Assembly (NCBI GenBank): GCA_963855995.1
Contig: OY979719.1
Span: 2,046,001-2,110,000, forward strand
DNA length: 64,000 nucleotides
Origin: Muricea muricata
Taxonomy: Eukaryota > Cnidaria > Anthozoa > Malacalcyonacea > Plexauridae
Direction of reading: 5' to 3'
Shown here: one piece after another, positions 32,512 through 61,906 of the stretch
Numbering within the stretch: position 1 is the stretch's first letter
Layout: each line of letters starts with the position of its first letter
Program-made: the position numbers and the translations under genes
Notes under the pieces: generated by a model
Databases searched by the model: none
Told to the model about the DNA's origin: nothing
Seen by the model: the letters and a program-made list of their open reading frames with translations, nothing else

Positions 32512-32524
32512 CCGACTTCTGACC

Positions 32525-33445: not shown

Positions 33446-33453
33446 CTTCTGAC

Positions 33454-34354: not shown

Positions 34355-36857
34355 AAAAAGGCAATTTAATTTTAATTTTGTGAATTTCGATTACAAAACA
34401 TGCCTTGGACTGTCGACCAATTGATTTCGTCAGGCGATTACAGACTTGTGAGAGGAGGGGGGTAGCCTAATTACTAAAATGTAGTGAAAAAAGGACTTTC
34501 CATCTAATGGTGGGAGCAGGTTGGCGGGAACACTGGAGAATAAAGGTCCTGTCACAATGCAATTTTTCTTGCAACTTGAAATGCAATTCTACTATTGGGA
34601 GATGTAAAATTGGCAAATGCAAGTTTCCATCACAGTTTGCTGGGGTTTTTTAACGTACCAAACATTTGTCACAAATTTACTTAAGAGTAGATTTTCCCTG
34701 TAGCAAAAAAGATGGCAAATGTCGATTTTACCAGAGTGCATGGTAGTCTGAAATTGTTTAAAAAGGCAAATTAACGTCTTTTAAAGAACAGACAGAAGAC
34801 AATAGGTTATTTTCACACTTGTGTTAAAATTTCAATCCAGTAGCTTTGTTTCTTGTCATCTTTTCCCACGTATTCTTTCTTGATACCTGCAATGCATTCT
34901 GGTAAAATCGACATGTCGCCATCTTTTTTGCTACGGTGAATGCAAGGAAAAGTGCACCGTGTGACAGGGCCTTAAGGGTAAGAGGTGGATAGAGAAGGAG
35001 ACGGAGCAGTTACAAGTGCAAGAAAAATTGCACCGTGTGACAGGGCCTTGAGGGTGGGAGGTGGATAGGAGGAGACGGAGCAGGATGTGGGAGTCGTGCA
35101 AGGTCGGGATGTTAAAAAAGAACAAGGAATGTTATGTTTTTAATGCCTTTTAGACTTTTCTTGAGGCAATTAAAATTCAAACTGTCAAATCCAAACACTG
35201 TACAGAATGGCCGACTTTATGTGGTCTTTAGTTTTTACACAACCACTTGCATTGTTATCTTTTGCAGTTTGTTTACCATTTCAGTTATCTATCTTCAATA
35301 GAATTCTTTGAAATTTGTTTGTAGATCGACAAAATGCTTAACCTCCTCTCAACAACTGGCAGATTATGAAAAATGAAATTGTTAAAGGTATTGGAATATT
35401 GCATGTACAATATTGAATATGGGACAATTTGGGACAGTATAATTTTGGACATGACGGTTTCATTCTCACCTAATTTGACGATTATTTTGTGGGTACACAT
35501 ACCGTGGAATCTCATGTGCTCCAGAAGCATTTTAATCTTAGAAAAAGTCAAATAATGATGAACTGTGTTTTAAAAGAAAGTTAGAATCTTATTTGGTTCA
35601 AATCAATTGAATTATGGCCCAAGAGTTCATGAAAACACATACAAAAGGCTTTCTTAAAAAACTGAAATATCAAATCTAGCAATTTTATATGTTATGCCTC
35701 TAAACAACACAATTCTGTTTCTAAAAATTGGTACCCTACTAGACCTATATGCATGATTATATTAATTTGGACATATTTATTTTTACCCATTAAAATATAA
35801 ATTTGTGTTTAATCATTCGTGTTTGTCATTATTTGACTTTGTAATGTTGGTTAAACATAAGGAGATTGAGGTGACTTTGCCAGAAACAAAAACATCCATT
35901 ATTATACTAAAATTTCAATATATGTAGCAATTAAAACTAACCACAGGAAATATATTTCTACTTTTTAATTGAAATGTTTCTGTTATATGCACTATATCAT
36001 ATTTTTGATAAAAAATTACAACACCTATGTTATTTCCTGGTTTACTATCTCAATCATCTTTTGTTTAAGCTGGCTTTGAGTGTTCATTTGAAAGTTTGGA
36101 AAGTTCATTTGAAAATCACAATAGTTCTCAATGTTATATTGGACCCTTTAAAGTTAAAAAAATACTTTGTAATATTTTATACTACTCGTAATTTATCTTA
36201 GATACAGACTTTGTGATTTTGTACTAGAATGTTGACTTTCAAACTTTAAGATGAACTACTTATTAAGGACAAAATAAGCTAGCATATTGTCTTTTGTTTA
36301 CAAAGTGGAACTTGTTTGGAATTGAGATGAACTGATGCAGTTGTTCTTTAACTTTATCAATTAATTACATATCTTAAATGAAAAAGAAAACCACAACTTG
36401 CCAAATAAATTCTGTGGGCTCTTTTTATTAGCAAAGAAAAGATGTGGCAGATGTAAGAATTTAAGAGTAAAAAAGTTTCCTTGGACTAAAAAAATTGACA
36501 GTATGCCAGATTTTCTAGATAAACAAGCAGTACAGATGTTGGCCAATAATAAGTATAAGTAACTACAATTTTTAATTTTAAAAGTTTTCTATTGATGCCT
36601 GGATACAGTAAATACTTTACCAGAGTTCTTCGTATTACATCGACTTGAAAAAGTTTTAAGTCACATGAAGCTTTTAGTTGATACTATGCAATTTCAAATT
36701 TTACAGACTTCTTAATTAACATGCCAAATTTACCTTGTTGAACATAAGGTCTTTCCTGAGAAAAAGTAAAACTGTCTGGCATTATATGGAGTAGAATAAT
36801 TTAAATTAGTTTGAGACTTTGATTTGATAACAATTTTGATTTGTACTATTTACAATA

Positions 36858-37020
36858 CAAGTGACCGGGTTGTATCGGATATACAAACCCAAGCTGAAGG
36901 CGAGATATCTGACATACACAGATGCGAATGTTGTAAATGGCTTGTGAAACTCGTCAATTTTATACATCAGATCTATAGCAAAGTGATTTTGAAAATACCG
37001 ATTCTGTAAGATGAGAAAAT
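36858..37020 (+). mobile_element. TATCGGATATAC-family element, left-arm copy
   Basis: TTGTATCGGATATACAAACC, GCTGAAGGCGAGATATC, AATGGCTTGTGAAAC and AATTTTATACATC in the same order as at 8,780-8,995. The right-arm mirror is 58,155-58,317. Confidence 0.6.
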
Positions 37021-38657
37021 GATTTCTTTTGTGTTTCCTGTATGATTTATTACTTTATAAGTTTCTTAATTAAAATTACAACATATTGCCTACTGGAACT
37101 TTTTATATTGTTTGGTTGTGGTGAATTTGTATTTTGGCAATTGAAATATTTCTGAATTTGTATGTGCATTTCCTTTGCTTCAGTTCAAGTTTACATTTCA
37201 AATATTCCACTTTGTAATACTTGCGTGGTAATAATAATATAAGAAAACAGGTTTACATGGCTCTTGAATATAGTCTTTTCAACAAGTAAGTAAAGATGAA
37301 TTTATACTTCAAAGAGATATGTTCCTAACCTGACAATGGTACCTTCCAAAAAGACTAAATTTAAATTGATTCTTCGAATAAATTTTTTACTTTTCAATCC
37401 AAGATCAATCTAAGTTATGTATTTCTACTTTTATTTTGGTCTCTTTAACACTGAAACTATCAATTGTATATAAAGCAACTTCACTATCGAGTGACTTCAT
37501 TAGTTGCTGGGCAAAGCCAAAGCATTGATTTTTCGGCTGTTTTCAATGAAAAATAGAATTTTGCCCAAAGTTATCTCAAATAAATTATCACAATTTGAAC
37601 AAAAAGCTTCTGTTCTTGTGCCCACCAGAAAAATGAGATGTCTGAGACTTTCTTTGTATTTTTTTGCGAAAAATAGATCGCATGCACTGTTATGCAAAGA
37701 AAAGTGTAAGAGATTGGTTTCTGAAAAATGTCGTGCTACACACAATATTCTAAAAATGCTTGGTTTTTATTCTATGTATTTTTGAATTTTTTGTTAAAAA
37801 AAATAAAGGTAGCAATGTTTAGTGCATTTCACATTGTCAGGTTAGAAACGCAATAAGAAAAATGTGGCTCCGAACATTACAGCTTGGTCAATTTGGAATT
37901 TATAAAAAAATCGTTTCTTCGTTGTTTTTCGACGTTTTGAAGGGTTGTTTCGAGTACAAAAAAGTATTTTTAGGAAGAATTATGTGCCCACGTTACATGT
38001 CTCAAAGCCATCAAAATTCGTTGGTAATTCGTGCATGTATTTTTTCTGACTTATAAAAGCACAATTGATTAAAAATGATATTTTTCTTTTGACAAAAATA
38101 CCTTTCTTCTGTGAGGCTGGCTGTATTTGAAAAAGCGTTGGTCAACGCTCCGCCAAAACTCGTGGGTTTTCTCCGGGTACTCCGGTTCTTCCCACTGGGA
38201 GAGTTGACAGGGTAGTTACATATGGTTATAAAAATGTGACTAACTTTTGAAAACCTTTCTACTTAGACTTGTTAAGCCTTCTCGTCATCTCTATCAGTTG
38301 CATGTTTTGAGCCACATGTTTTTCTTTGTAATTGTGAAACAACTCGTTATATGCTGGGTAAACCTTTGCAAAACTCTCAAAATTTATCACTTCAAGTTGT
38401 TTCATTGTTATAATATATTTTGAAGTATAAACATTTACTTACGTTGAAAAGACCCAAGTTATTTAGGACTTTGTTCATTCACTTGTGTTATTGTTCTCTC
38501 TGCCATGTTCTGTTTTCTTCTGTTGTTATTTTAATAAGTACAATGTGTGGTAGTTAATCTCTTTTTATTGTTATTCAAATTGTATGTAATCTTTACAAAT
38601 TTTTTCAATAAATTGTTTACAAAATTTACTTGTGACCCCTTTTTAATTAAAAATTCA

Positions 38658-38671
38658 ATTCCCATGGGAAT
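38658..38671. promoter_or_regulatory. EBF/COE-type palindrome ATTCCCATGGGAAT
   Basis: Perfect match to the ATTCCCNNGGGAAT form. Two more lie at 40,276-40,289 (AT centre) and 40,374-40,387 (TT centre), with mirrors in the right arm. Function is inferred from consensus only. Confidence 0.35.
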
Positions 38672-38697
38672 TGAGAAATTGAGTAAAAAAAATCCCC

Positions 38698-38814
38698 CTA
38701 CCCCGGCCAGCTCCCCAAGTGCCACTTCCACCTAAGTAGAAGTACTTATACATGTAGTACAAGTACTTCTACTTATTCACGGTGGAAGTAGCACTCGGAG
38801 AACTGGCCGGGGTA
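38698..38814. repeat. 117-bp hairpin, left-arm copy
   Basis: CTACCCCGGCCAG...CCACTTCCACC...AGTAGAAGTACTT on the left pairs with AAGTACTTCTACT...GGTGGAAGTAGC...CTGGCCGGGGTAG on the right. Mirror at 56,361-56,477; a third, diverged copy starts at about 63,889 and is cut by the window end. Confidence 0.85.
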
Positions 38815-39649
38815 GCCGGCAAAGAGAAGACCAACTTTGCAAGTGCTAATACAATTGCTAAGTTGATCTTCCCTTGAGAGTAGCCGCGCGTACCTAACAA
38901 ATTAAAACAACAAACGTTAGTGACTTAAGTACTTAGCATGCAAATTTGATTCCCAAAGCCAAAATGTCAAGTGCCCCCCGCTGATCCTACCAACTGCCTA
39001 CCTGCCTCAGTTCTAAGCTGTCTTCCTCAGTTCTAAGCTCCTGCATTCCATTCGTTACCTTCACTTTCCTCACCATCGCACAGTCACTCACAGCTGATAA
39101 ACCCGCATGCACCACCACCACCCCGACTGCCACCCAATTTCGAAAATTAAAAGAGTTAAAATTTCGGTAAAGTATGCGTTTTAAATGCAATTTATTTGGA
39201 TATTTTAGATCAAACGTAAACAGAAAAAGCTCGTACATAAAAACAGGTGAGAATTCTATTTAAAATTTGCTTGCAAAATATAAAACTTAATTTGCATTTT
39301 TCTTAGTTAATAGTATAGATCAATTTAGTTGATGTTGAAACCTACTCTTAACTGTTTTATTAGAAGTGACGACAGATTTTGGTTTTTAAGCATACTTTCA
39401 AAAATTTTAATTCCTTTAATAAACCTAATCCCATGCAACTTACACACGGCGCACACCCTCGCAGTCCATACATTTAGCTAATAAATTACGTTATAAACAA
39501 AAAAGCAAAATAAAAAGATAAATTACGTTATCTCTAGCTACTTAAACCCACTTAGACTGAGTTTTTGATTGAATTTTCAAACGTAAAACCTTAGCTGAAT
39601 GGGCATGGGCTTTTCGTTGTGTTAACTGTTCCGGAGTAAATATAAACCT

Positions 39650-39891
39650 GGGGCCGGTTGTATCAAAGGCGTTTAGCTTAAACGGTGGATAAGTGAAATT
39701 TAAAAATCAGTTTTACACCTAGTACGGAACCGAAATTATGAGTTGAAATAGAATAAGTATTTAGTTTTATATATAATTGTTCTTCTCAGGTCAAATAACT
39801 TCAGCTGGTTTGTTTATACAACATGGAAACTTGTTTCATATTTTTGACTTATCCACCGTTTAAGCTAAACGCCTTTGATACAACCGGCCCC
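39650..39891. mobile_element. GGGCCGGTTGTATC-family TIR element, left-arm copy
   Basis: 242 bp, same TIRs and interior as 25,893-26,133, again abutting CCTG on both sides. The paralogous place in the third arm copy (near 63,037) lacks it. Confidence 0.85.
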
Positions 39892-41524
39892 TGATACTTA
39901 CCAAAGTCCAAGGCTGGGTCAAATAAGCATGAGAATTAGGCAAAAATAAAAAGCAATTGAAACTCAACAGATTCACTAAAGTTGTTTTTTTTTTGGCAAC
40001 TTATATCCTTAAGTGTAGATGACATGCAATTTTTAATGCCGTAATTCTCACACTTATTTAACCGAAACGCCTTCATTTGCATGGTACCTCGCAGCTGCTC
40101 TCAAACCACCTTCGTAATTTGCTTTAGTGTACACAAACAATGACTTCATTGTTCCTGCTTACCAAAACAAATCTGAAAGCACCAAGATACTTATCATATT
40201 AATAATCAAAGAGGATTCGCATTATGCAGTAATTACCATAAACAGACGCATCACCATTGAAACAAAGCATGCCGTATTCCCATGGGAATTTAAAATGCAC
40301 AAAAAAATATAATGATCCTACTGATTTGCATGGATGTATGAACCAAATTAGCTAAGAAACAAAGAAATGATATATTCCCTTGGGAATTTAATGTAGCAAA
40401 AAGATGGCGGGTGTTGATTTTACCAGAATGCCTTACGGTCTGAAATCGTTTAAAAACTTAAGGTAAATTAACCTCGTTTGAGGAACAGACAGATAGGTTA
40501 TTTTGTCACTTGTGTTAAAATTCCGTCCATTAGCTTATGTTAAATATCATTTCACTGCTATTCTTGATTGATACCCGCATTAAATTCTGGTAAAATCGAC
40601 ATGCCACCATTTGTTTTGCTACGGTGAATTGGAATACAAGTCAAATTTTCTCGCTTTTTAACCAGAGAACACATTCTTTAAAGGTAGAACGACGGAATTG
40701 ATCGTTTACAATCGACGCCATCTTTGTTGACGTTTGAAACACATGGCAACCACAAAGTATCTATTCATTATATCTGATCCTATCGAGCCATACATCTTTA
40801 AAGTATCATTCATAATACGCTAAAACTAACGATGAAATAGTAAATTGACACAAGTACTTCGCTGTAAACAGCTGAAGTAATCTGCAGAGTCAACCAAGAT
40901 GGCGCCCAATCACACGAAATGACGGCATGTGCAAACCAAAAATAGTGACCAAATGCATCAACTATAATTTAGTGGCATTATTACGAAACTTATTTTTGTA
41001 AAACGTTCAATCCTACATGTTATTTTGTTTTGTTTTTAGAAATATCCAAATCCAAATGTTAGAGACGAAATTTCCAGGCGTTAAGGTATTGTTTCTTTAA
41101 AAAATATTGTCGACATTTACCATATTTTTACCTGTTTTTTGACTCGAAAATTGACTGCCAAACTCCTAGGTATTCTATTTAATTATTTTGTTGAATGTAT
41201 TTGATATCAATGTTATTTCAATCCAATTTTTTTCACTTAATTTGCTGTCTTCTCTTTTTCATTAACGAGAAATATCTATTAAATCCTCTTTGATCCCTCA
41301 ATAATAAGTATCTTGTTTTCTACTAACTTGCACATTACCACTACTTTCTATTACAATGTCGTGTCTTCTCATTCTTGTGGATTGTTGTTTTGTGGGTCTT
41401 GTCGTCCAGGATCGTTCATTCTTTTCTTTTCTTGTGCGTTTTTTTCACATCCCATCACCCTTTGCAATAGTAGAAAGAATTAAATCATGAGATGATAGTT
41501 ACGAGTAATTTATAAACTATAACA

Positions 41525-41940
41525 TATTAAACAATTATTGGATGAGGTTTTTGTGATATGCGGAATTATCAATGTCGAGGTAAGAGTTATCAGCCGAGCC
41601 GAAGGCGAGTCAGATAACTCTTACCGAGAGATTGATAATTTTGCATATCACAAAAACCGAATCCGATAATTGCTTTATTATACATTTTAAGTCTTTTTCC
41701 TCGAGCAATTGACGCATTTCGCCCTCGGAAGAGCTTAAAAAGGAAGATGCCATAACATGAAACAGAAAATATCGAAAAAATGTTGTTGCCATGCCAACCA
41801 TTGATGCCAACGAATACCGCATACTGTAATAATCTGCACCGTAGGCTCAACATCCAGATAACTCAGTTATCTGCTAGCAGATAACTGAGTTATCTGCAGA
41901 TTGTGTGATAGTCGCATTTATCTGCATACAACTGATCAAT
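41525..41940. mobile_element. Palindromic miniature element (TCTGC / CGAAGGCGAG family), left-arm copy
   Basis: TTGGATGAGGTTTTTGTGATATG..., paired GAGGTAAGAGTTATC / GATAACTCTTACC around CGAGCCGAAGGCGAG, then the double palindrome of GATAACTCAGTTATC at 41,857-41,900. Same order as at 23,980-24,498, inverted. Confidence 0.65.
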
Positions 41941-43655
41941 CACAACGCATAAAACAACTGCAATGTATAATAAAATAGTTTATTAATTAGGCCGGCCAAA
42001 TTATTGTGTAAGCTGTTAATATGAAATTTTTTTATTAAAATCTCGAGAATCATTAGTAAATCGTGAACAAAACACAAAAGAAAATCATAGCCGTGAAGGA
42101 GTCTTTATTTCTCACACGCACACAACTTGCAGCTACCCTAATTTATGATTTTAAATCAAAATATCTCGAGAATTAAACAACACGTAAGGAATGTGTAAAT
42201 TCTTAAAGCTCTTTCGAACAATAAAAATTAATATCTCGCACTAATCTCTCTCAAAAGCTCTCTCAAATTTATTACCAATATCTCTTCAACTATTACTTTG
42301 CAGGTGAAATGTAACTTCTATCAAAACTAGCTTACTTCAAGTTGTTTGGGAATTAAGATTTTACGTGTCAACGAGATCAAATATGAATCTAAGATGGCAG
42401 ACAGCGCATTAAATTTCTATCTTTACGACCAACTCCCCAACGAAAGGCTTTAATTCGCTCGAAAGTCGAATTTTGTTTTTTTATTGTTTAATGTAGTGAA
42501 AGATCCTGTGTGCTTTTTACAGCACTGCTAACACTAGCAACGTTAGTGCGAGATGTTAATTTTTATTGAAACGAAAGCTGAACTGCTAAAGAAAATAGAA
42601 ACGACAAGATAAAATCAAAAAACTTACTTTCACTCTATCTTTGGATCTTCTTGGCTTCGGTTGTTCTCGTTTCATCATGCTGTTTATGGTTTCATCTGGT
42701 TGGCGCACTCTCCTCACGGAACATCACGCCGGTCCAGTAGGTAACTAGCTCACTCGTGTCCAGTCAACCAACATAAAATAAGGAGAAAATTAATGTTACA
42801 AAATATTTTAGAATATAGGACACTAAGCGTTAATTGAAATTGACTTTAACAAACCGTACATTGTGATAGTATTTGCATCTTAACATCTGATGGAGACGGC
42901 TTGTGATTTACTTCTTATGTCGATATGAATTCTTTCCCATCTTGTTGCATCATTAGTTGATGGTTGTTGTATTCACTTTTTACTTGGCATTCTTTGAAAA
43001 AAAAATTACGATGTTCAGAAAACTGTTTACAAGATAAGCAAAGAAAACTACGTTCACAAGCATTAGAGAGGACTAAGTAATTATAATAGGCGTGACAGGT
43101 CACAGAGGTTAGTCGACGAAGAAACTCATGGACAAATTCCCGGCATGATGATATTCCGATAGCAAGAAGTACAGCAAGTGTAGAACGTGTACGTGTAAGC
43201 TTAAACTGTATCTATGCAAATCCAAGAAAAGCGCAACACAAAATGGCGGAATTTAAAGACATTTCTGGTGTCATTTCCAGTTCCCTAACTTTCGCGGACA
43301 AATATATTTATATATTTTTCTCAAATTTTTTTGAAGTAAATCTAGATGGATTTTGTGAATAAACAAATTGAAAAAAGTATTGCCCACGTTAGGAAACTAG
43401 AACGGGCGCCCAAGAATGCCCACAATTTCTCCAATCTGGATTATATTTATTGATTGCGCAAATGACTGATAAAAAATAAGAGAGTAATAAAATACCAAAT
43501 GGTTTCCTCTTCAAGATAGTGTCATACATGCGCGCGGCATTTCGGGATATTTGGGAAAACTCATGTTGAAGTTGAACCTAAGGCAACATGCCAAGTACAT
43601 GGATGACGCTATCCTGCTCAGGAAACTATTTAGTAATTGTCTTACAAAATGATTA

Positions 43656-43977
43656 CAGTGAAACACAAGTCAACGCCACGGCATTTAAATTTCTCGTGTA
43701 GGATTGTTTAATCCTGCACAGTAATAGCCAAGTGGCGCAATCGTCAGAGCAAACGCCTATCACATGTGAGGTCGTGGGTTCAATCCTTACTTCAGACTCG
43801 TGACACCCATGTGAGGAGTTAGTCAGTCGTGGGTTTATCCCGGGTACTCCGGTTTGCGAATGTTGACTGGATGGTTAAAATTGTAAAATATCAGTAATCA
43901 CCGGAACACGGGTACTTAACTAAACTGCTGACGATGAGGCGGAACTCATAATGAATTAATGAAAATGTGTTTCACTG
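43656..43977. mobile_element. TA-flanked TIR element containing tRNA-like A and B boxes
   Basis: Ends CAGTGAAACACA / TGTGTTTCACTG, each flanked by TA, giving about 322 bp. Inside, AGTGGCGCAATCGTCAGAGC and GGTTCAATCC resemble pol III A and B boxes of a tRNA, followed by CCCGGGTACTCCGGTTT, a motif I associate with cnidarian short repeats and also present at 38,174-38,189. Could be a SINE captured in a MITE. It is not a tRNA gene: no cloverleaf closes. Mirror at about 50,470-50,791. Confidence 0.55.
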
Positions 43978-44639
43978 TAGTTATCATACAATGTAATTGC
44001 CAAGCTGAATGAATAATTCTCCAGTAACTACGTCATATGAATAATTTACAATTATGAGAGTAGTGGGGGGGGGGGGGCAGCATAAAGATTGAAGTAGTGT
44101 CAAGGAAGGGGTACTACCCTGACGGGTACTAGGCGAAGAAGTAGAGTAAACAGGAGGAAGAAAATTAAATTGGAGTAAATAAGGGGGATTGGGGTAAAGA
44201 AGGGGAGAAGCAGGATAAAGAAACCAGTGGAAGGGGGTGCTATCCTGGAAGGAGTACCCGGGAAAGAAGAGGGTGAACAGGAGGAAAAGTAGATTGGAGT
44301 ACAGAAAGGGGAAATTAAACGGATCAGGAAATTCAGACTTGCAATTCAAATGAAAGGCAGCTCATTGGTCATGTAAACACTCGTTAAATCATGGTTCTCG
44401 CTTGCCTTTAGCTTGGAATCATCTTTGAATTTGAACTGAAAGTCTGAATTTGCATGTTTCTTGTATAGATTGCAGTGTATCAGAACAGAAGAGGTTTTGA
44501 AGAAAAAGAAAGAAAGAATAAAAGTAAGTTAAAATTTGTAAAGAATAATGAAGAAACTATTGGTACAGCACTTGATACATGATGATAATCATCATTATAA
44601 ACTCTCTATTAATCCGGGGGGGGGTATAATAGAGAATTT

Positions 44640-46430
44640 GCAATGATAGTAAGTATATTGTAATATTTGGGTTTTTACCACTAAATCCTCTTGAAAGTTC
44701 TTTTTGGCTGTGGCTTCTCTCATCACAGTTGTCTGTGCTTGTCTTGCAAAATCTCTGGAATATCTATAACGTGAAGGTCAATATTTAAGATTAGAAAAAT
44801 AGAAACCGTAAAATAGAAAGAAATTTAAATCGTGGCGAATACTTTTTACGGTCTTGCTGGCATGACAAAAAGAGAGTATAGATTTATAAGATCATGTTGA
44901 TTTATCCTTTATCTGAACTATATTTAACTTAGATTTTAAAATAGATTTCACCCTGGTAAGCAGACCGAATGGGTTTTCAAACAAGATAACATTTAATGAC
45001 TAAAACGTGCACAGAATAGTTAGAGAATGCTTACATGTCGAATAAAAATCCAATACTTTTAATGTCCAACTACACAATAGCGATTTTCGTTGCATTTCTA
45101 GACTGGAGAAGAAGACGACGCCATTTTGATTTTGATTTCTCCCGACAACGGCAGATTTGTCTTCGCAATTTTTTTCCATTTCTTCGTCGTTTTAGCTCCA
45201 ATTTGCTCGTTGTGTTTCTTTCGTACCTTCCTCGCCATTTCCGTACAACCAATGGACATTTATACTCAAGATTAAGACTGTATTGAGACTTTCAAAATGT
45301 TCGTCAGGAGACATAAAAATCGAAGCTTCTTCTTCGGGTTGCAGAAGCAAATGACGTCAGACGACCTTTGTCCGCCAGCAAATACCCGTATGTATAACAT
45401 TCAATGATCTTTTTAGGAAGCTGAAAATCAGTTTTTATTGCGCGAACGAAATGTTTTTGCCATTATTTCTTACTCAGGTCTTTGTTCTACTACTTTACTT
45501 CCAGTTTAGTTAGGTAACTTGCCAAAAGAAACGCCTGTAAGGGACAATTTTGCATTTTTTTTTTATTTCGATGCTGATGAAGAAGAGAAGACTCGTTAGA
45601 GCTTTCATTGGCAAATATCTTTCCCTCCGTGGCGGAGAGGTAAAGACAACTGTCTTGACTTCGATTTTGGGTGGATCGAGGACCGGTCCAGTTCAACTGA
45701 GTTTGGTAAGAATTTAATTCTGATCGGTGCTCGATCCACCCAAAACTGAATTCAAAGCTGGGCGTGGAGTGCAGGAAAACACTAGGCAGTACCGCGAGGC
45801 CAAGGAGGCAAACGTTATTTTCCTAGTGTTGTTAACTAATATTTAAGCAAATTTCATTAACTTGACTGTTGGGGACAGACCTGTAGGGTTGGTGCATTGA
45901 AGACTTCTCGTCGTTATTTCCCTTCGTTCAAGAAGACAAGTTGTCTTCATCGAGAAATAACGACGAAAAGACTTCAAGACACCACTAAACCACTACACTT
46001 TAAAGCTACAGTGTAGTGGTTTAGCTAGCTAAACCACTACACTGTGCCAATAATATATGGCTGACTTCTTCCTAACGCTTACGGTACGACCATGGATGCG
46101 CAAAGATGCGCAAACACATTAAAGCCTTGAAAGCAAGTGTTTTCTTTTAGGAAAGAATCAAGGACGACAACGCTTACTAAATCAAAGCCGTCTAGTCATG
46201 TTTTAAGTACTTCAGCTATGTTTAACGATCTTTTACCAGATCTTTGCAAGAGGAAAAGTAAAATTTTGCATCATTATTATTAACTTTCCGTCAGTCGTTT
46301 CTTTCTTGATCGAGCATTATATGCCATTGTGTTCAGTGTCCTTGATATAGGAGCCATATACTTATGGCCTTGGGTTTAATTCCCAAACACTGAATGGCAG
46401 TGTTTTGCTCTTCCAATGAGATAACAAGAT
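44640..46430 (-). repeat. Family F repeat, left-arm copy
   Basis: Reverse complement of 48,030-49,770, with the blocks listed for copy 2. It contains an internal perfect palindrome of GTAGTGGTTTAGC with its reverse complement near 46,013-46,040. Confidence 0.75.
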
Positions 46431-46922
46431 GGCACTGTAGAACGCGTGGTTTTATATAAGCTACGAGCGTCAAGATATCCTTGATAGGTAACTATTGATC
46501 CTACAATGGCACTTATGTTCACTGCCAATAGGAACGTTTTCAACTCACAGCTTGTACATAATGGCTTTTATAGGTTGTGTCACAAGGAAACTGCAGTTCG
46601 GTCGTAAAATCAACTTGTTTTCAAGGTTGCCGGGTTTTAAACATTACTGACACTGTTAATGTTGTAGCTCGGAATTGTAAAACAACGGCGGCAATGCAGT
46701 TTTCTTGTGCCATAACCATATAAGCTACGACCGCCAAGCTTTATCCTTGATAGGAAAGAATTGATCCCACCAACGACATTTGTATTCTCTACCGATAGGA
46801 ACGTTTGAGACTTACAGCTTGTACATAACGCATTTTATCGGTGAGTCGTAAAACCAACCTGTTACTGCTCAGCAAACTACCATTTCCCTCGATCAACGAT
46901 AGTCGATGAAGCTTGGCGCTCG

Positions 46923-47497
46923 AGTTGTTCAGCTAAGTTAAACGATCTTTTATGGCGAGGTCTTTTCAAGAAGGCATGAAGCATAGATGCGCAAACACTG
47001 TACAGCCTGTAAAGAATATGTCTTCTTTCGGGAAAGAGTCAAAGACGATAACGCTTATTAAATCAAAACTGTGTAGGCATGTTTTAAGTTGCTCAGCTAT
47101 GTTTAACGATCTTTTATGACCAGGCCTTTGCAAGAAGGAAAGTCGAAGTTTGCATATACTATTGACTTTCCGTCGGTCGTTTCTTTCTTGATCGAGCTTT
47201 ATATGTCATTGTGTTCAGTGTCCTTGATATAGGAGTCATGTATTTATGGCCTTGGGTTTGATTCCCAAACACTGCATGGCAGTCTTCAGCTCTTTCAAGT
47301 AATAAGATAACTTTGGAACAAGATGGCAATGCGTTATTTACTATATGCCTGGTCATGCTGTAACTAATCATGTAGTATATTCTACAAACCTTAACTCAGA
47401 ACGTTGGCTGTCAGTTTCTATTCGTGGTTGCTTTGAAACATTGCAGATACTGCTAACCTGGCTATAACCTGTAAAATGCTTGGTTTTACACAACCTA
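46923..47497 (+). repeat. Loop of the giant palindrome (575 bp)
   Basis: Unpaired centre between the two arms. It is not unique: 47,083-47,320 is a direct, diverged copy of 46,199-46,430 (TCAGCTATGTTTAACGATCT, GATATAGGAGTCAT, CCCAAACACTGCATGGCAG). The loop is thus another partial family F unit. Confidence 0.85.
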
Positions 47498-49770: not shown

Positions 49771-50469
49771 AAACCCAAATATTACAATATACTTACTATC
49801 ATTGCAAATTCTCTATTATACCCCCCCCCCCGGATTAATAGAGAGTTTATAATGATGATTATCATCATGTATCAAGTGCTGTACCAATAGTTTCTTCATT
49901 ATTCTTTACAAATTTTAACTTACTTTTATTCTTTCTTTCTTTTTCTTCAAAACCTCTTCTGTTCTGATACACTGCACTCTATACAAGAAACATGCAAATT
50001 CAGACTTTCAGTTCAAATTCAAAGATGATTCCAAGCTAAAGGCAAGCGAGAACCATGATTCAACGAGTGTTTACATGACCAATGAGCTGCCTTTCATTTG
50101 AATTGCAAGTCTGAATTTCCTGATCCGTTTAATTTCCCCTTTCTTTTCTCCAATCTACTTTTCCTCCTGTTCACCCTCTTCTTTCCCGGGTACTCCTTCC
50201 AGGATAGCACCCCCTTCCACTGGTTTCTTTATCCTGCTTCTCCCCTTCTTTACCCCAATCCCCCTTATTTACTCCAATTTAATCTTCTTCCTCCTGTTTA
50301 CTCTACTTCTTCGCCTAGTACCCGTCAGGGTAGTACCCCTTCCTTGACACTACTTCAATCTTTATGCTGCCCCCCCCCCCCCCACTACTCTCATAATTGT
50401 AAGTTATTCATATGACGTAGTTACTGGAGAATTATTCATTCAGCTTGGCAATTACATTATATGATAACT

Positions 50470-50791
50470 ACAGTGAAACACATTTTCATTAATTCATTAT
50501 GAGTTCCGCCTCATCGTCAGCAGTTTAGTTAAGTACCCGTGTTCCGGTGATTACTGATATTTTACAATTTTAACCATCCAGTCAACATTCGCAAACCGGA
50601 GTACCCGGAATAAACCCACGACTGACTAACTCCTCACATGGGTGTCACGAGTCTGAAGTAAGGATTGAACCCACGACCTCACATGTGATAGGCGTTTGCT
50701 CTGACGATTGCGCCACTTGGCTATTACTGTGCAGGATCAAACAATCCTACACGAGAAATTTAAATGCCGTGGCGTTGACTTGTGTTTCACT
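50470..50791. mobile_element. TA-flanked tRNA-box element, right-arm mirror copy
   Basis: Mirror of 43,656-43,977. The inner end reads TTTCACTGTC rather than TTTCACTGTA, one of the arm-specific substitutions. Confidence 0.55.
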
Positions 50792-52478
50792 GTCATCATT
50801 TTGTAAGACAATTACTAAATAGTTTCCTGAGCAGGATAGCGTCATCCATGTACTTGGCATGTTGCCTTAGGTTCAACTTCAACACGAGTTTTCCCAAATA
50901 TCCCGAAATGCCGCGCGCATGTATGACACTATCTTGAAGAGGAAACCATTTGGTATTTTATTACTCTCTTATTTTTTATCAGTCATTTGCGCAATCAATA
51001 AATATAATCCAGATTGGAGAAATTGTGGGCATTCTTGGGCGCCCGTTCTAGTTTCCTAACGTGGGCAATACTTTTTTTAATTTGTTTATTCACAAAATCC
51101 ATCTAGATTTACTTCAAAAAAATTTGAGAAAAATATATAAATATATTTGTCCGCGAAAGTTAGGGAACTGGAAATGACACCAGAAATGTCTTTAAATTCC
51201 GCCATTTTGTGTTGCGCTTTTCTTGGAGTTGCATACATACAGTTTAAGCTCACACGTACACGTTCTACACTTGCTGTATTTCTTGCTATCGGGGTATCAT
51301 CATGCCGGGAATTTGTCCATGAGTTTCTTCGTCGACTAACCTCTGTGACCTGTCACGCCTATTATAATTACTTAGTCCTCTCTAATGCTTGTGAACGTAG
51401 TTTTCTTTGCTTATCTTGTAAACAGTTTTCTGAACATCGTAATTTTTTTTTCAAAGAATGCCAAGTAAAAAGTGAATACAACAACCATCAACTAATGATG
51501 CAACAAGATGGGAAAGAATTCATATCGACATAAGAAGTAAATCACAAGCCGTCTCCATCAGATGTTAAGATGCAAATACTATCACAATGTACGGTTTGTT
51601 AAAGTCAATTCAATTAAAGCTTAGTGTCCTATATTCTAAAATATTTTGTAACATTAATTTTCTCCTTATTTTATGTTGGTTGACTGGACACGAGTGAGCT
51701 AGTTACCTACTGGACCGCCTTGATGCTCCATGAAGAGAGTGCGCCAACCAGATGAAACCATAAACAGCATGATGAAACGAGAACAACCGAAGCCAAGAAG
51801 ATCCAAAGATAGAGTGAAAGTAAGTTTTTTTATTTTATCTTGTCGTTTCCATTTTTTTAGCAGTTCAGCTTTTGTTTCAATAAAAATTAACATCTCGCAC
51901 TAACGTTGCTAGTGTCGGTAGTACTGTAAAAAGCACACAGGATCTTTCACTACCTGAAACAATAAAAAAAAACAAAATTCGACTTTCGAGCGAATTAAAG
52001 CCTTTCGTTGGGGAGTTGGTCGTAAAGATAGAAATTTAATGCGCTGTCTGCCATCTTAGATTCATATTTGATCTCGTTGACACGTAAAATCTTGATTCCC
52101 AAACAGCTTGAAGTAAGCTAGTTTTGATATAAGTTACATTTCACGTGCACAGTAATTCTCAAAGAGATATCGGCAATAAATTTGAGAGAGCTTTTGAGAG
52201 AGATTAGTGCGAGATATTAATTTTTATTGTTCGAAAGAGCTTTAAGAATTTACACATTCCTTACGTGTTGTTTAATTCTCGAGATATTTTAATCTAAATT
52301 CATAAATTAGGGTAGCGGCAAGTTGTGTGCGTGTGAGAAATAAAGACTCCTTCACGGCTATGATTTTCTTTTGTGTTTTGCTCACGATTTATTAATGATT
52401 CTCGAGATTTTAATAAAAAAATTTCATATTAACAGCTTACACAATAATTTGGCCGGCCTAATTAATACTATTTTATAA

Positions 52479-52841
52479 TATACTGAGTGTCAAAGTTCAT
52501 TTATTCCTGTTTCTTATTGGTTAAGAACGTATCACGTGATAGTGGAGAAATTCTATTGTCTCCCTGGCAACGTAGCTAAGCGGTGGACATTACTTTTATT
52601 CACCGGTAGACAACAAATCCACAAAGCCTCACGTAGCCATGTCAGGTAAAAGGTAATCCTTTTTACACATGTTTGATTGATTTGTGGTACTTTTCTTCTC
52701 TTTTGGCACTCAGTATATAATAAAATACTTATTGACTGAGACCTCGGGAAAGCAGTATGTTTTGTGGACCCTCGACATCGACAGTCTCTGGTCCACAAAA
52801 CATACTGTTTCCCTCGGTCTCAGTCAATAAGTGTTCATTAC
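52479..52841. mobile_element. Right-arm-specific insertion (~362 bp) with internal fold-back
   Basis: The left arm reads continuously CTATTTTATTATACATTGC (reverse complement of 41,961-41,979), while the right arm is split after CTATTTTATA. The insert contains a strong inverted pair: TTATTGACTGAGACC...GTATGTTTTGTGGACC and GGTCCACAAAACATAC...GGTCTCAGTCAATAA. Confidence 0.75.
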
Positions 52842-52926
52842 TATACATTGCAGTTGTTTTATGCGTTGTGATTGGTCAGTTGTATGCAGATAAATGCGAC
52901 TATCACACAATCTGCAGATAACTCAG

Positions 52927-53151
52927 TCATACAATAAGAATACATAGAAGGGCCACTCAGCAGTGCAACATGTCACGCTATGTTTATGCAGTTTACTGGC
53001 TGCCACCAGCCAGTTCAGCATTCCTATTGGCCAGAAAATGCAATTGACTGGCTGAGAAAATGCTAATAACGTGCGTAATGCGACATGCGCGGCTTCAAAA
53101 ACTCCAAAGGCTCCGACGCGAGTGGCCCTTCTATGTATTCTTATTCTATGG
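52927..53151. mobile_element. Right-arm-specific TIR element (225 bp)
   Basis: Long TIRs AATAAGAATACATAGAAGGG and their reverse complement. Flanked by CTCAG on both sides (52,922-52,926 and 53,152-53,156), while the left arm has the uninterrupted site at about 41,882-41,892. A clean insertion after or during arm divergence. Confidence 0.85.
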
Positions 53152-53154
53152 CTC

Positions 53155-53512
53155 AGTTATCTGCTAGCAGATAACTGAGTTATCTGCATGTTGAGCCTAC
53201 GGTGCAGATTATTACAGTATGCGGTATTCGTTGGCATCAATGGTTGGCATGGCAACAACATTTTTTCGATATTTTCTGTTTCATGTTATGGCATCTTGCT
53301 TTTTAAGCTCTTCCGAAGGCGAAATTCGTCAATTGCTCGAGGAAAAAGACTTACAATGTATAATAAAGCAATTATCGGATTCGGTTTTTGTGATATGCAA
53401 AATTATCAATGTCTTGGTAAGAGTTATCTGACTCGCCTTCGGCTCGGCTGATAACTCTTACCTCGACATTGATCATTTCGCATATCACAAAAACCTCATC
53501 CAATAAGTGCTT
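53155..53512. mobile_element. Palindromic miniature element (TCTGC / CGAAGGCGAG family), right-arm copy
   Basis: Mirror of the 41,525-41,880 part of the left arm; the GATAACTCAGTTATC palindromes are interrupted by the 225-bp element just before it. Confidence 0.65.
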
Positions 53513-53527
53513 AATATGTTATAGTTT

Positions 53528-53611
53528 ACTTATTAAGCTTTGTGGAAACACCACGTAAATTTATTATTGCAATAATAAATTTACGTGGTGTTTCCACAAA
53601 GCTTAATAAGT
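53528..53611. repeat. Perfect 84-bp palindrome, right arm only
   Basis: Two 42-bp halves, ACTTATTAAGCTTTGTGGAA...TTATTATTG and its exact reverse complement, with no spacer. It is part of a ~134-bp insertion; ATGTTATAGTTTA on both sides looks like a target duplication. GTGGAAACACCACGTAAAT also occurs at 17,453-17,471. Confidence 0.9.
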
Positions 53612-55283
53612 ATATTGTATTCACCATGCAAACGTACAAGAAACTTATCATGTTATAGTTTATAAATTATTCGTAACTATCATCTCATGACTTAATTCTT
53701 TCTACTATTGCAAAGGGTGATGGGATGTGAAAAAAACGCACAAGAAGAGAAAAGAATGAACGATCCTGGACGGCAAGACCCACAAAACAACAATCCACAA
53801 GAATAAGAAGACACGAAATTGTAATAGAAAGTAGTGGTAATGTGCAAGTTAGTAGAAAACAAGATACTTATTATTGAGGGATCAAAGAGGATTTAATAGA
53901 TATTTCTCGTTAATGAAAAAGAAAAGACAGCAAATTAAGTGAAAAAAATTGGATTGAAATAACATTGATATCAAATACATTCAACAAAATAATTAAATAG
54001 AATATCTAGGAGTTTGGCAGTCAATTTTCGAGTCAAAAAACAGGTAAAAATATGGTAAATGTCGACAATATTTTTTAAAGAAACAATACCTTAACGCCTG
54101 GAAATTTCGTCTCTAACATTTGGATTTGGATATTTCTAAAAACAAAACAAAATAACATGTAGGATTGAACGTTTTACAAAAATAAGTTTCGTAATAATGC
54201 CACTAAATTATAGTTGATGCATTTGGTCACTATTCTTGGTTTGCACATGACGTCATTTCGTGTGATTGGGCGCCATCTTGGTTGACTCTGCAGATTACTT
54301 CAGCTGTTTACAGCGAAGTACTTGTGTCAATTTACTATTTCATCGTTAGTTTTAGCGTATTATGAATGATACTTTAAAGATGTATGGCTCGATAGGATCA
54401 GATATAATGAATAGATACTTTGTGGTTGCCATGTGTTTCAAACGTCAACAAAGATGGCGTCGATTGCAAACGATCAATTCCGTCGTTCTACCTTTAAAGA
54501 ATGTGTTCTCTGGTTAAAAAGCGAGAAAATGTGACTTGTATTCCAATTCACCGTAGCAAAACAGATGGTGGCATGTCGATTTTACCAGAATTTAATGCGG
54601 GTATCAATCAAGAATACCAGTGAAATGATATTTAAGATAAGCTAATGGACGGAATTTTAACACAAGTGACAAAATAACCTATCTGTCTGTTCCTCAAACG
54701 AGGTTAATTTACCTTAAGTTTTTAAACGATTTCAGACCGCAAGGCATTCTGGTAAAATCAACACCCGCCATCTTTTTGCTACATTAAATTCCCAAGGGAA
54801 TATATCATTTCTTTGTTTCTTAGCTAATTTGGTTCATACATCCATGCAAATCAGTAGGATCATTATATTTTTTTGTGCATTTTAAATTCCCATGGGAATA
54901 CGGCATGCTTTGTTTCAATGGTGATGCGTCTGTTTATGGTAATTACTGCATAATGCGAACCTCTTTGATTATTAATATGATAAGTATCTTGGTGCTTTCA
55001 GATTTGTTTTGGTAAGCAGGAACAATGAAGTCATTGTTTGTGTACACTAAAGCAAATTACGAAGGTGGTTTGAGAGCAGCTGCGAGGTACCATGCAAATG
55101 AAGGCGTTTCGGTTAAATAAGTGTGAGAATTACGGCATTAAAAATTGCATGTCATCTACACTTAAGGATATAAGTTGCCCAAAAAAAAAAACAACTTTGT
55201 GAATCTGTTGAGTTTCAATTGCTTTTTATTTTTGCCTAATTCTCATGCTTATTTGACCCAGCCTTGGACTTTGGTAAGTATCA

Positions 55284-55525
55284 GGGGCCGGTTGTATCAA
55301 AGGCGTTTAGCTTAAACGGTGGATAAGTCAAAAATATGAAACACGTTTCCATGTTGTATAAACAAACCAGCTGAAGTTATTTGACCTGAGAAGAACAATT
55401 ATATATAAAACTAAATATTTATTCTATTTCAACTCATAATTTCGGTTCCGTACTAGGTGTAAAACTGATTTTTAAATTTCACTTATCCACCGTTTAAGCT
55501 AAACGCCTTTGATACAACCGGCCCC
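55284..55525. mobile_element. GGGCCGGTTGTATC-family TIR element, right-arm copy
   Basis: Mirror of 39,650-39,891. Confidence 0.85.
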
Positions 55526-56360
55526 AGGTTTATATTTACTCCGGAACAGTTAACACAACGAAAAGCCCATGCCCATTCAGCTAAGGTTTTACGTTTGAAA
55601 ATTCAATCAAAAACTCAGTCTAAGTGGGTTTAAGTAGCTAGAGATAACGTAATTTATCTTTTTATTTTGCTTTTTTGTTTATAACGTAATTTATTAGCTA
55701 AATGTATGGACTGCGAGGGTGTGCGCCGTGTGTAAGTTGCATGGGGTTAGGTTTATTAAAGGAATTAAAATTTTTGAAAGTATGCTTAAAAACCAAAATC
55801 TGTCGTCACTTCTAACAAAACAGTTAAGAGTAGGTTTCAACATCAACTAAATTGATCTATACTATTAACTAAGAAAAATGCGAATTAAGTTTTATATTTT
55901 GCAAGCAAATTTTAAATAGAATTCTCACCTGTTTTTATGTACGAGCTTTTTCTGTTTACGTTTGATCTAAAATATCCAAATAAATTGCATTTAAAATGCA
56001 TACTTTACCGAAATTTTAACTCTTTTAATTTTCGAAATTGGGTGGCAGTCGGGGTGGTGGTGGTGCATGCGGGTTTATCAGCTGTGAGTGACTGTGCGAT
56101 GGTGAGGAAAGTGAAGGTAACGAATGGAATGCAGGAGCTTAGAACTGAGGAAGACAGCTTAGAACTGAGGCAGGTAGGCAGTTGGTAGGATCAGCGGGGG
56201 GCACTTGACATTTTGGCTTTGGGAATCAAATTTGCATGCTAAGTACTTAAGTCACTAACGTTTGTTGTTTTAATTTGTTAGGTACGCGCGGCTGCTCTCT
56301 AGGGAAGATCAACTTAGCAATTGTATTAGCACTTGCAAAGTTGGTCTTCTCTTTGCCGGC

Positions 56361-56477
56361 TACCCCGGCCAGTTCTCCGAGTGCTACTTCCACCGTGAAT
56401 AAGTAGAAGTACTTGTACTACATGTATAAGTACTTCTACTTAGGTGGAAGTGGCACTTGGGGAGCTGGCCGGGGTAG
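56361..56477. repeat. 117-bp hairpin, right-arm copy
   Basis: Mirror of 38,698-38,814. Confidence 0.85.
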
Positions 56478-58154
56478 GGGGATTTTTTTTATTCAATTTC
56501 TCAATTCCCATGGGAATTGAATTTTTAATTAAAAAGGGGTCACAAGTAAATTTTGTAAACAATTTATTGAAAAAATTTGTAAAGATTACATACAATTTGA
56601 ATAACAATAAAAAGAGATTAACTACCACACATTGTACTTATTAAAATAACAACAGAAGAAAACAGAACATGGCAGAGAGAACAATAACACAAGTGAATGA
56701 ACAAAGTCCTAAATAACTTGGGTCTTTTCAACGTAAGTAAATGTTTATACTTCAAAATATATTATAACAATGAAACAACTTGAAGTGATAAATTTTGAGA
56801 GTTTTGCAAAGGTTTACCCAGCATATAACGAGTTGTTTCACAATTACAAAGAAAAACATGTGGCTCAAAACATGCAACTGATAGAGATGACGAGAAGGCT
56901 TAACAAGTCTAAGTAGAAAGGTTTTCAAAAGTTAGTCACATTTTTATAATCATATGTAACTACCCTGTCAACTCTCCCAGTGGGAAGAACCGGAGTACCC
57001 GGAGAAAACCCACGAGTTTTGGCGGAGCGTTGACCAACGCTTTTTCAAATACAGCCAGCCTCACAGAAGAAAGGTATTTTTGTCAAAAGAAAAATATCAT
57101 TTTTAATCAATTGTGCTTTTATAAGTCAGAAAAAATACATGCACGAATTACCAACGAATTTTGATGGCTTTGAGACATGTAACGTGGGCACATAATTCTT
57201 CCTAAAAATACTTTTTTGTACTCGAAACAACCCTTCAAAACGTCGAAAAACAACGAAGAAACGATTTTTTTATAAATTCCAAATTGACCAAGCTGTAATG
57301 TTCGGAGCCACATTTTTCTTATTGCGTTTCTAACCTGACAATGTGAAATGCACTAAACATTGCTACCTTTATTTTTTTTAACAAAAAATTCAAAAATACA
57401 TAGAATAAAAACCAAGCATTTTTAGAATATTGTGTGTAGCACGACATTTTTCAGAAACCAATCTCTTACACTTTTCTTTGCATAACAGTGCATGCGATCT
57501 ATTTTTCGCAAAAAAATACAAAGAAAGTCTCAGACATCTCATTTTTCTGGTGGGCACAAGAACAGAAGCTTTTTGTTCAAATTGTGATAATTTATTTGAG
57601 ATAACTTTGGGCAAAATTCTATTTTTCATTGAAAACAGCCGAAAAATCAATGCTTTGGCTTTGCCCAGCAACTAATGAAGTCACTCGATAGTGAAGTTGC
57701 TTTATATACAATTGATAGTTTCAGTGTTAAAGAGACCAAAATAAAAGTAGAAATACATAACTTAGATTGATCTTGGATTGAAAAGTAAAAAATTTATTCG
57801 AAGAATCAATTTAAATTTAGTCTTTTTGGAAGGTACCATTGTCAGGTTAGGAACATATCTCTTTGAAGTATAAATTCATCTTTACTTACTTGTTGAAAAG
57901 ACTATATTCAAGAGCCATGTAAACCTGTTTTCTTATATTATTATTACCACGCAAGTATTACAAAGTGGAATATTTGAAATGTAAACTTGAACTGAAGCAA
58001 AGGAAATGCACATACAAATTCAGAAATATTTCAATTGCCAAAATACAAATTCACCACAACCAAACAATATAAAAAGTTCCAGTAGGCAATATGTTGTAAT
58101 TTTAATTAAGAAACTTATAAAGTAATAAATCATACAGGAAACACAAAAGAAATC

Positions 58155-58317
58155 ATTTTCTCATCTTACAGAATCGGTATTTTCAAAATCACTTTGCTAT
58201 AGATCTGATGTATAAAATTGACGAGTTTCACAAGCCATTTACAACATTCGCATCTGTGTATGTCAGATATCTCGCCTTCAGCTTGGGTTTGTATATCCGA
58301 TACAACCCGGTCACTTG
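58155..58317 (-). mobile_element. TATCGGATATAC-family element, right-arm copy
   Basis: Mirror of 36,858-37,020. Confidence 0.6.
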
Positions 58318-60820
58318 TATTGTAAATAGTACAAATCAAAATTGTTATCAAATCAAAGTCTCAAACTAATTTAAATTATTCTACTCCATATAATGCCAGA
58401 CAGTTTTACTTTTTCTCAGGAAAGACCTTATGTTCAACAAGGTAAATTTGGCATGTTAATTAAGAAGTCTGTAAAATTTGAAATTGCATAGTATCAACTA
58501 AAAGCTTCATGTGACTTAAAACTTTTTCAAGTCGATGTAATACGAAGAACTCTGGTAAAGTATTTACTGTATCCAGGCATCAATAGAAAACTTTTAAAAT
58601 TAAAAATTGTAGTTACTTATACTTATTATTGGCCAACATCTGTACTGCTTGTTTATCTAGAAAATCTGGCATACTGTCAATTTTTTTAGTCCAAGGAAAC
58701 TTTTTTACTCTTAAATTCTTACATCCGCCACATCTTTTCTTTGCTAATAAAAAGAGCCCACAGAATTTATTTGGCAAGTTGTGGTTTTCTTTTTCATTTA
58801 AGATATGTAATTAATTGATAAAGTTAAAGAACAACTGCATCAGTTCATCTCAATTCCAAACAAGTTCCACTTTGTAAACAAAAGACAATATGCTAGCTTA
58901 TTTTGTCCTTAATAAGTAGTTCATCTTAAAGTTTGAAAGTCAACATTCTAGTACAAAATCACAAAGTCTGTATCTAAGATAAATTACCAGTAGTATAAAA
59001 TATTACAAAGTAATTTTTTAACTTTAAAGGGTCCAATATAACATTGAGAACTATTGTGATTTTCAAATGAACTTTCCAAACTTTCAAATGAACACTCAAA
59101 GCCAGCTTAAACAAAAGATGATTGAGATAGTAAACCAGGAAATAACATAGGTGTTGTAATTTTTTATCAAAAATATGATATAGTGCATATAACAGAAACA
59201 TTTCAATTAAAAAGTAGAAATATATTTCCTGTGGTTAGTTTTAATTGCTATATATATTGAAATTTTAGTATAATAATGGATGTTTTTGTTTCTGGCAAAG
59301 TCACCTCAATCTCCTTATGTTTAACCAACATTACAAAGTCAAATAATGACAAACACGAATGATTAAACACAAATTTATATTTTAATGGGTAAAAATAAAT
59401 ATGTCCAAATTAGTATAATCATGCATATAGGTCTAGTAGGGTACCAATTTTTAGAAACAGAATTGTGTGGTTTAGAGGCATAACATATAAAATTGCTAGA
59501 TTTGATATTTCAGTTTTTTAAGAAAGCCTTTTGTATGTGTTTTCATGAACTCTTGGGCCATAATTCAATTGATTTGAACCAAATAAGATTCTAACTTTCT
59601 TTTAAAACACAGTTCATCATTATTTGACTTTTTCTAAGATTAAAATGCTTCTGGAGCACATGAGATTCCACGGTATGTGTACCCACAAAATAATCGTCAA
59701 ATTAGGTGAGAATGAAACCGTCATGTCCAAAATTATACTGTCCCAAATTGTCCCATATTCAATATTGTACATGCAATATTCCAATACCTTTAACAATTTC
59801 ATTTTTCATAATCTGCCAGTTGTTGAGAGGAGGTTAAGCATTTTGTCGATCTACAAACAAATTTCAAAGAATTCTATTGAAGATAGATAACTGAAATGGT
59901 AAACAAACTGCAAAAGATAACAATGCAAGTGGTTGTGTAAAAACTAAAGACCACATAAAGTCGGCCATTCTGTACAGTGTTTGGATTTGACAGTTTGAAT
60001 TTTAATTGCCTCAAGAAAAGTCTAAAAGGCATTAAAAACATAACATTCCTTGTTCTTTTTTAACATCCCGACCTTGCACGACTCCCACATCCTGCTCCGT
60101 CTCCTCCTATCCACCTCCCACCCTCAAGGCCCTGTCACACGATGCAATTTTTCTTGCACTTGTAACTGCTCCGTCTCCTTCTCTATCCACCTCTTACCCT
60201 TAAGGCCCTGTCACACGGTGCACTTTTCCTTGCATTCACCGTAGCAAAAAAGATGGCAACATGTCGATTTTACCAGAATGCATTGCAGGTATCAAGAAAG
60301 AATACGTGGGAAAAGATGACAAGAAGCAAAGCTACTGGATTGAAATTTTAACACAAGTGTGAAAATAACCTATTGTCTTCTGTCTGTTCTTCAAAAGACG
60401 TTAATTTGCCTTTTTAAACAATTTCAGACTGCCATGCACTCTGGTAAAATCGACATTTGCCATCTTTTTTGCTACAGGGAAAATCTACTCTTAAGTAAAT
60501 TTGTGACAAATGTTTGGTACGTTAAAAAACCCCAGCAAACTGTGATGGAAACTTGCATTTGCCAATTTTACATCTCCCAATAGTAGAATTGCATTTCAAG
60601 TTGCAAGAAAAATTGCATTGTGACAGGACCTTTATTCTCCAGTGTTCCCGCCAACCTGCTCCCACCATTAGATGGAAAGTCCTTTTTTCACTACATTTTA
60701 GTAATTAGGCTACCCCCCTCCTCTCACAAGTCTGTAATCGCCTGACGAAATCAATTGGTCGACAGTCCAAGGCATGTTTTGTAATCGAAATTCACAAAAT
60801 TAAAATTAAATTGCCTTTTT

Positions 60821-61868: not shown

Positions 61869-61906
<38 letters not shown>

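Follow-up and report, generated by a model that had tools for sequence, protein, structure and literature searches.

Helitron2 elements, as defined by Bao and Jurka (2013, PMC3627910), carry an asymmetric inverted repeat whose 5' copy lies 0-2 bp from the 5' end inside a 5' hairpin and whose 3' copy precedes a 3' hairpin and is about 20-30 bp away from the 3' terminus, and they insert after T-rich sites. Helentrons, with their non-autonomous HINE and DINE-1 elements, have 12-15 bp subterminal inverted repeats and a 3' hairpin, and insert at TT, where additional Ts occur at the boundary (Thomas et al. 2014, PMC4067079). Here we analyse a stretch of 64,000 nucleotides from the cnidarian Muricea muricata (assembly GCA_963855995.1, contig OY979719.1, positions 2,046,001 to 2,110,000; hereafter the window), which lies in contig C4 of a 453-Mb genome and contains a 26.5-kb palindrome. 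The palindrome is cargo and not the mobile unit itself; its carrier is very probably a giant non-autonomous rolling-circle transposon of the Helitron2/Helentron type. The structure fits the Helitron2 definition as given in the portion of PMC3627910 consulted, and its TT target is that of Helentrons. The novelty lies in the cargo and the way it behaves, and a palindromic Helitron is not described in the titles or abstract openings of the open-access PubMed Central (PMC) papers listed by the literature searches.

Structures were read from the assembled sequence, by exact-pattern counts and BLAST-type comparisons rather than from raw reads. The palindrome is real. BLAST of the window against itself gave two long inverted blocks, 34355-41525 against 60820-53650 at 99.4% and 41966-46717 against 52480-47728 at 98.5%. 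Global alignment of the arms gave 12,457 identities over 12,567 aligned columns (99.1%), with left-arm gaps of 134, 230 and 365 bases, and a further 25 near the loop, relative to the right arm. An earlier sequence-only reading had described reverse-complementary arms spanning 34,355-60,820 and had proposed aligning the window to its own reverse complement; the arms are as it described, and the stretch that it gave as identical (37504-37785 against 57390-57671) is so on comparison. Its 575-bp loop is 561 bp in the alignment.

The boundaries of the insertion lie 1.1 and 4.1 kb outside the outer ends of the palindrome (34355 and 60820). In most copies read, one side of the palindrome carries segment A and the other segment B, beyond which the flanks vary (Table 1). 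The unit is polarized on the minus strand, with its 5' end at 61954 and its 3' end at 30210. The asymmetric repeat, 12 bp long against 8-15 bp in non-autonomous Helitron2/Helentron elements, reads ACTCCGCCTGCC at the 5' end and recurs as GGCAGGCGGAGT 22 nt (24 with the TT) from the 3' end, so that its 5' copy is terminal and its 3' copy subterminal. DNA folding predicts a hairpin at each end, at -12.8 kcal/mol (z -5.4) for the 5' terminus, where the hairpin includes the repeat, and at -6.3 kcal/mol (z -3.2) for the 3' terminus. TT preceded all 13 outer 5' ends found, in 11 different flanks (two c8a ends and one L032 end having one kind of flank), and followed all 10 of the 3' ends found, in ten different flanks; TT makes up 0.121 of the dinucleotides of the window. 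Within the stretches read, six B sides showed no 5' end (c8b, c6 (B'), L029, L031, L033, L041) and five A sides no 3' end (L032, L039, L042, L043, L048), these sides being truncated, interrupted or running out of the sequence stretch. The seven copies with both ends identified measured 28.8 to 33.2 kb.

Table 1. Features of the element in the window (positions within the 64,000-nt stretch)
Feature	Position	Strand	Basis
Complete mobile unit, 31,745 bp, probable non-autonomous Helitron2/Helentron type, inserted at TT	30210..61954	-	Termini, TT flanks, empty-site paralogues of the same insertion
5' terminus: TT followed by ACTCCGCCTGCC, asymmetric inverted repeat (complement of 61943-61954), potential 5' hairpin	61925..61954	-	Sequence, DNA fold, copies
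3' terminus: inverted 12-bp repeat copy 30232-30243, hairpin ACGCCT-TAGC-AGGCGT 30214-30229, then CTTG followed by TT	30210..30243	-	Sequence, DNA fold, copies
Segment A: small element of the same family, ~1.94 kb without nested insert, own 5' end at 34354	30210..34354	-	Junctions; like-ended pairs elsewhere
2.2-kb insert within A of the window copy	32075..34281		Junction of 32074 with or near 34282 in the other A ends read
Left palindrome arm, L type	34355..46928		Deletions near 41512, 41883 and 41969, common to c4 and c6
Paralogue of the empty target site of the window insertion; repeat also present in the arm	41268..41430	+	85% over 170 columns across the junction
Loop, 561 bp	46929..47489		Arm alignment and genome sites
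Right palindrome arm, R type, full length 13,331 bp	47490..60820		Self-BLAST and arm alignment
Segment B: 5' end region of the unit; ~330 bp at 90% in common with A	60821..61954	-	Self-BLAST, copy ends

Empty sites were sought by comparing the joined flanks of seven insertions and of c8a with local sequences. For the window copy, two further paralogues at 77-78% accompany the one in Table 1, and the joined flanks of L035/L036 and L037/L038 matched paralogues across the junction at 92% and 73%, respectively. In all three the filled site differs from the empty one by two extra T, with no longer target duplication.

The layout of repeat and hairpins, including the distance of the 3' copy from the end, is that of Helitron2, although some Helitron2 elements have target-site duplications of 7-19 bp, of which none was seen here (PMC3627910, in the part consulted). 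The TT target with extra Ts is shared with the Helentrons, and the tandem repeats of some Helentron/HINE members have a counterpart in a 31-bp minisatellite in segment A (at about 30806-31160). In a mite HINE the 3' repeat lies 38-60 bp and the palindrome 8-35 bp from the end, compared with 22-24 and 4-6 here; a giant palindromic member does not appear in the consulted part of that account (PMC4067079). The non-autonomous Helitron2 elements of Chlamydomonas given in the same portion of PMC3627910 measure 657 and 673 bp, whereas the present element is about 30 kb long with a 26.5-kb palindrome and no recognisable gene. A canonical Helitron (Helitron1) would begin with 5' TC, end in 3' CTRR and lie between A and T; the ends here are ACTCC and CTTG, at TT.

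The element is abundant. Exact 30-mers at the loop edges occur 510 times genome-wide, two per palindrome, and thus indicate ~255 palindromes; the exact junctions (345 B/arm and 161 A/arm, 506 ends) agree with this count. At ~29.5 kb per unit, these copies would amount to an estimated 7.5 Mb. A 621-bp query containing the loop was 100% identical at all of the 40 best-scored sites among 1,529 candidates, and 22 further matches to it belong to a relative at 83-84% located in the arms. Five further copies read over 40 kb (c8a, c8b, c7, c6 and c4) all hold the palindrome and match the window in blocks at 95.7-99.8%, the long blocks at 98-99.8%, with the outer 97 bases of one arm absent from c4; the ends of ten more copies were also read. 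The genome-wide search for other copies that the sequence-only reading had suggested thus yielded recurrent palindrome/A and palindrome/B junctions in different flanks.

Neither arm contains a stop-to-stop frame of at least 150 amino acids. The longest in the right arm has 130; in 100 shuffles the longest frame averaged 110 and reached at most 164. No Pfam family matched the ten frames scanned, namely eight of the longest of the right arm and two of segment B (shorter frames lying outside the scan), and Rfam gave no match at gathering scores over 30000-62200. Eight long frames of the window that were also scanned lie outside the arms, and one of them, 33883-34356, lies inside the unit; it had no Pfam match. 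As far as these searches reach, the earlier view of arms that hold only repeats is borne out in that no gene was found in them. RepHel genes with long open frames are present in the genome: among the best 150 PF14214 matches of 352 candidates, 105 lie on contig C1.

The sequence itself shows the termini with their TT target, clean empty sites for three copies, ~255 copies and the lack of a long or Pfam-matching frame; we further propose a rolling-circle route with a circular intermediate and a RepHel partner. Such a RepHel protein, produced from another locus, would nick at the 5' end (61954), and one strand would be unwound or copied from segment B across the arm, the loop and the inverted arm into segment A, stopping at the hairpin and CTTG of A (30210), before the copy is joined into a TT site. 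Segment A, a small family member itself sitting at TT, would contribute the terminator as the 3' end of the whole unit. Conversion between the arms spreads copy-private mutations to both, and crossovers, probably in the outer half, would flip the arm-loop-arm block relative to the ends.

The composite nature of the unit is suggested by its smaller relatives. Exact copies of the 5'-end 30-mer number 803 genome-wide and those of the 3'-end 36-mer 579. Of the 86 exact 5' ends on C1, 36 are accompanied on the same strand by a 3' end no more than 2.5 kb away (expected 0.07); for six others the distance is 2.8 to 29 kb, and for 44 no such end occurs up to 40 kb. Same-ended pairs spaced 1.2-2.4 kb are therefore common small elements, and segment A, which carries the 3' end serving the whole unit, is of that kind; the 2.2-kb insert in A of the window copy was not seen in the other A ends read. 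The internal 5' end of A sits at TT (GCCTTTTT^TTCAATAA), where B sequence would otherwise run on, and 11 of 12 such ends read GCCTTTTT followed by ACTCC, L039 having TTTTC. In the simplest order of events, A would have landed in an inverted copy of B and then served as 3' terminator. Helitrons are known to use a later terminator (PMC4778049, in the part consulted), and downstream capture by this means, like the size range, is shared with giant gene-capturing Helitrons, which reach 39 kb in maize (PMC6431247, likewise in part). Unlike theirs, the cargo here is an inverted duplication in about 255 copies. Copy c6 has a different 3' part, in which a truncated B' is followed by 320 bp that contain an exon of sorbitol dehydrogenase (E 5e-8 to 1pl6) and then by an A-type 3' end, so that in this copy the exon lies between B' and the 3' part, as in gene-capturing Helitrons. 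The exon (L021:5764-6084, plus a second piece recognised by eye) looks like gene-fragment capture. The arrangement bears on how Helitrons acquire new 3' ends, with A terminating a unit far longer than itself.

L arms are distinguishable from R arms by 65 substitutions and by deletions totalling about 730 bp, all in the inner half. L type was defined from the left arms of the window, c4 and c6, so these three show the L/R contrast by construction. In the left arm of c7 the L marks are partly gone and R sequence is present in part, while the left arms of c8a and c8b have R sequence over most of the marked length and keep 5 and 4 of the 65 L marks, mostly near the loop. Substitutions between the arms of a copy range from 130 in c4, 117 in the window and 116 in c6 to 64 in c7, 16 in c8a and 15 in c8b. 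Among 54 variants present in exactly two arms, the two belonged to a single copy for 47 and to two different copies for 7, compared with a chance expectation of 6 same-copy pairs in 66. This supports gene conversion between the arms of a copy, and private mutations common to both arms indicate exchange at or after the birth of each copy. Gene conversion had been among the explanations offered in the sequence-only reading, and the shared private variants and tracts of L-to-R replacement bear it out.

The central block also appears to change orientation. Among 40 oriented perfect loops, 24 had exactly one A junction listed; A lay on the L side in 17 of these and on the R side in 7, so that in the latter the inner block has the opposite orientation to the ends. 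In the four of these 7 for which both arm lengths are available, the short arm keeps its place on the loop's L side and is joined to B instead of A. The block probably flips by crossover, the likely location being the outer half, where L and R do not differ. The single-copy part of chloroplast genomes similarly flips between inverted repeats; no transposon is involved there, and here the flip is read from 24 copies. From C3 to C6:7.33 Mb there are 53 palindromes, comprising 31 with A and B ends (AB), 6 BB, 1 AA, 13 with one end identified and 2 with none, counts from exact patterns that miss mutated ends. The AA palindrome, with A ends on both sides, is G000:C3:19891989-19918465.

It is possible, though we hold it only tentatively, that the Helitron2/Helentron unit is as proposed and that the flips, the AA and BB forms and the homogenised arms arise before insertion, in circular or single-stranded intermediates, through fold-back synthesis or dimer circles. 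BB pairs recur at a length of about 27.2 kb, which corresponds to two arms of full length, and Helitrons make circles (PMC4778049, in the part consulted); a circle with two inverted arms would be expected to flip. The graded conversion tracts and shared private mutations would nevertheless require exchange at or after the birth of a copy, for which a circle and a chromosome would look alike. A wider and equally speculative picture is that of an isomerising palindromic replicon, in which AB, BA, BB and AA forms would be interconverted by arm recombination or fold-back synthesis, as a self-amplifying and conversion-repairing hairpin DNA that fills small chromosomes and is kept almost off the three largest.

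Several observations weigh against a giant Helitron2/Helentron-type transposon carrying the palindrome. Copy c8a is bounded on either side by a 5'-type end, with no 3' end in the roughly 5 kb read beyond each, and double 5' ends are not predicted by a rolling-circle model, which is one-way. The flanks of c8a are inverted relatives of each other (96% over 198 bp), and this type of flank meets the 5' end at 12 genome sites, 8 of them on C8. The flips and the AA and BB forms could be lineages of a few masters rather than per-site events. In L032 a c8a-type flank is followed some 600 bp further out by A sequence from 31941 on, so the 3' end may lie further out in such copies. A spanning paralogue was not found among the local sequences for the joined flanks of c6, c4, L045/L046 and c8a, and that of c7 gave only a ragged arm-repeat match at 78% locally. 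The c7 target is a short interspersed nuclear element (SINE); when its joined flank was scored at the best 40 of 769 genome candidates, 38 matches crossed the junction at 79-91% and the other two were its own flanks. A search for an autonomous element with these exact ends, confined to C1, found none: of the 105 Rep matches listed there, not one lay within 30 kb upstream of an exact same-strand 3' end.

The remaining explanations fare far worse. The sequence-only reading had suggested that the palindrome might itself be a very large fold-back mobile unit. The copies, the TT ends, the flips and the empty sites support a mobile unit of large size, but not fold-back ends in the sense of terminal inverted repeats, the termini being asymmetric and located beyond the palindrome, so that the coordinates given there hold for the palindrome and fall short of the unit, which reaches 30210 and 61954. 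A cut-and-paste fold-back (FB-like) transposon or giant miniature inverted-repeat transposable element, with the arms as terminal inverted repeats, would explain why the element is mostly inverted repeat, with no coding capacity found and a high copy number, yet we regard it as quite improbable: in the copies read the arm ends 34355/60820 join A or B and not varied target DNA, the variable boundaries (30210/61954) are the asymmetric 5' and 3' termini, and the three clean empty sites show only the two extra T and no longer target duplication.

Similarly improbable is an immobile family of ampliconic palindromes, spread by segmental duplication and homogenised through gene conversion like those of mammalian sex chromosomes. 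Conversion between arms does occur here, the arms being more than 99% alike and maintained by conversion as in those palindromes (PMC8981503, in the part consulted), and some BB copies, mostly on C8, have flanks in common. Unrelated flanks nonetheless start exactly at the transposon termini and there are clean empty sites, which contradicts such an origin for the AB copies; moreover, unlike the sex-chromosome palindromes, the present ones are mobile, interspersed and without recognised genes. An assembly fold-back or chimeric read copying one arm in reverse, also raised in the sequence-only reading, is the least credible explanation, for while large near-identical palindromes are a classic assembly artefact and this one is known from the assembly alone, it is contradicted by the recurrence of one loop and one set of junctions in ~255 copies whose flanks differ, by arms that differ by 15 to 130 substitutions in each of six copies in a consistent L/R pattern, and by the empty-site paralogues of three copies.

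The palindromes are unevenly distributed. Exact palindrome patterns are absent from C1 and C2 (at least 191 Mb), since three lists of matches run in contig order and all begin at C3. C3 has two palindromes, and the remaining copies are on other contigs. C1-C3 make up at least 55% of the genome, and by length ~141 of the 255 palindromes would be expected there. C1 and C2 nevertheless hold 5' and 3' ends of the transposon family, and SINE copies occur on C2 and C3 as well. A CCT/Hsp60 family gene marker with 49 matches was found on C2, C4-C7 and C10-C14 and not on C1, C3, C8, C9 or C15; because C8, C9 and C15 are also without a match, this hints no more than weakly at a low gene content of C1 and C3. 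On C4, 15 of 16 palindromes lie within the first 6.71 of 19.16 Mb.

Instability and difficult replication are the rule for long palindromes, and Helitrons presumably transpose by way of a single strand. Here that strand could snap into a 13-kb hairpin, and from about 255 young copies it seems that DNA of this kind can be mobilised whole. These copies amount to a natural experiment on palindrome stability, with the same 26-kb palindrome at hundreds of sites and its arms marked, from which conversion tract length, flip rate and loss are measurable.

Positions 61285-61296 of segment B are a frequent insertion point, several copies having inserts there; in c7 the 12 bases are repeated on both sides of the insert. 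Outside the element, frames of the window match phosphomevalonate kinase (4056-4655), an MFS transporter (14652-15548), a DSPn phosphatase (19591-21843) and reverse transcriptase (24499-25095), the third of which we take to be a CDC14-like dual-specificity phosphatase.

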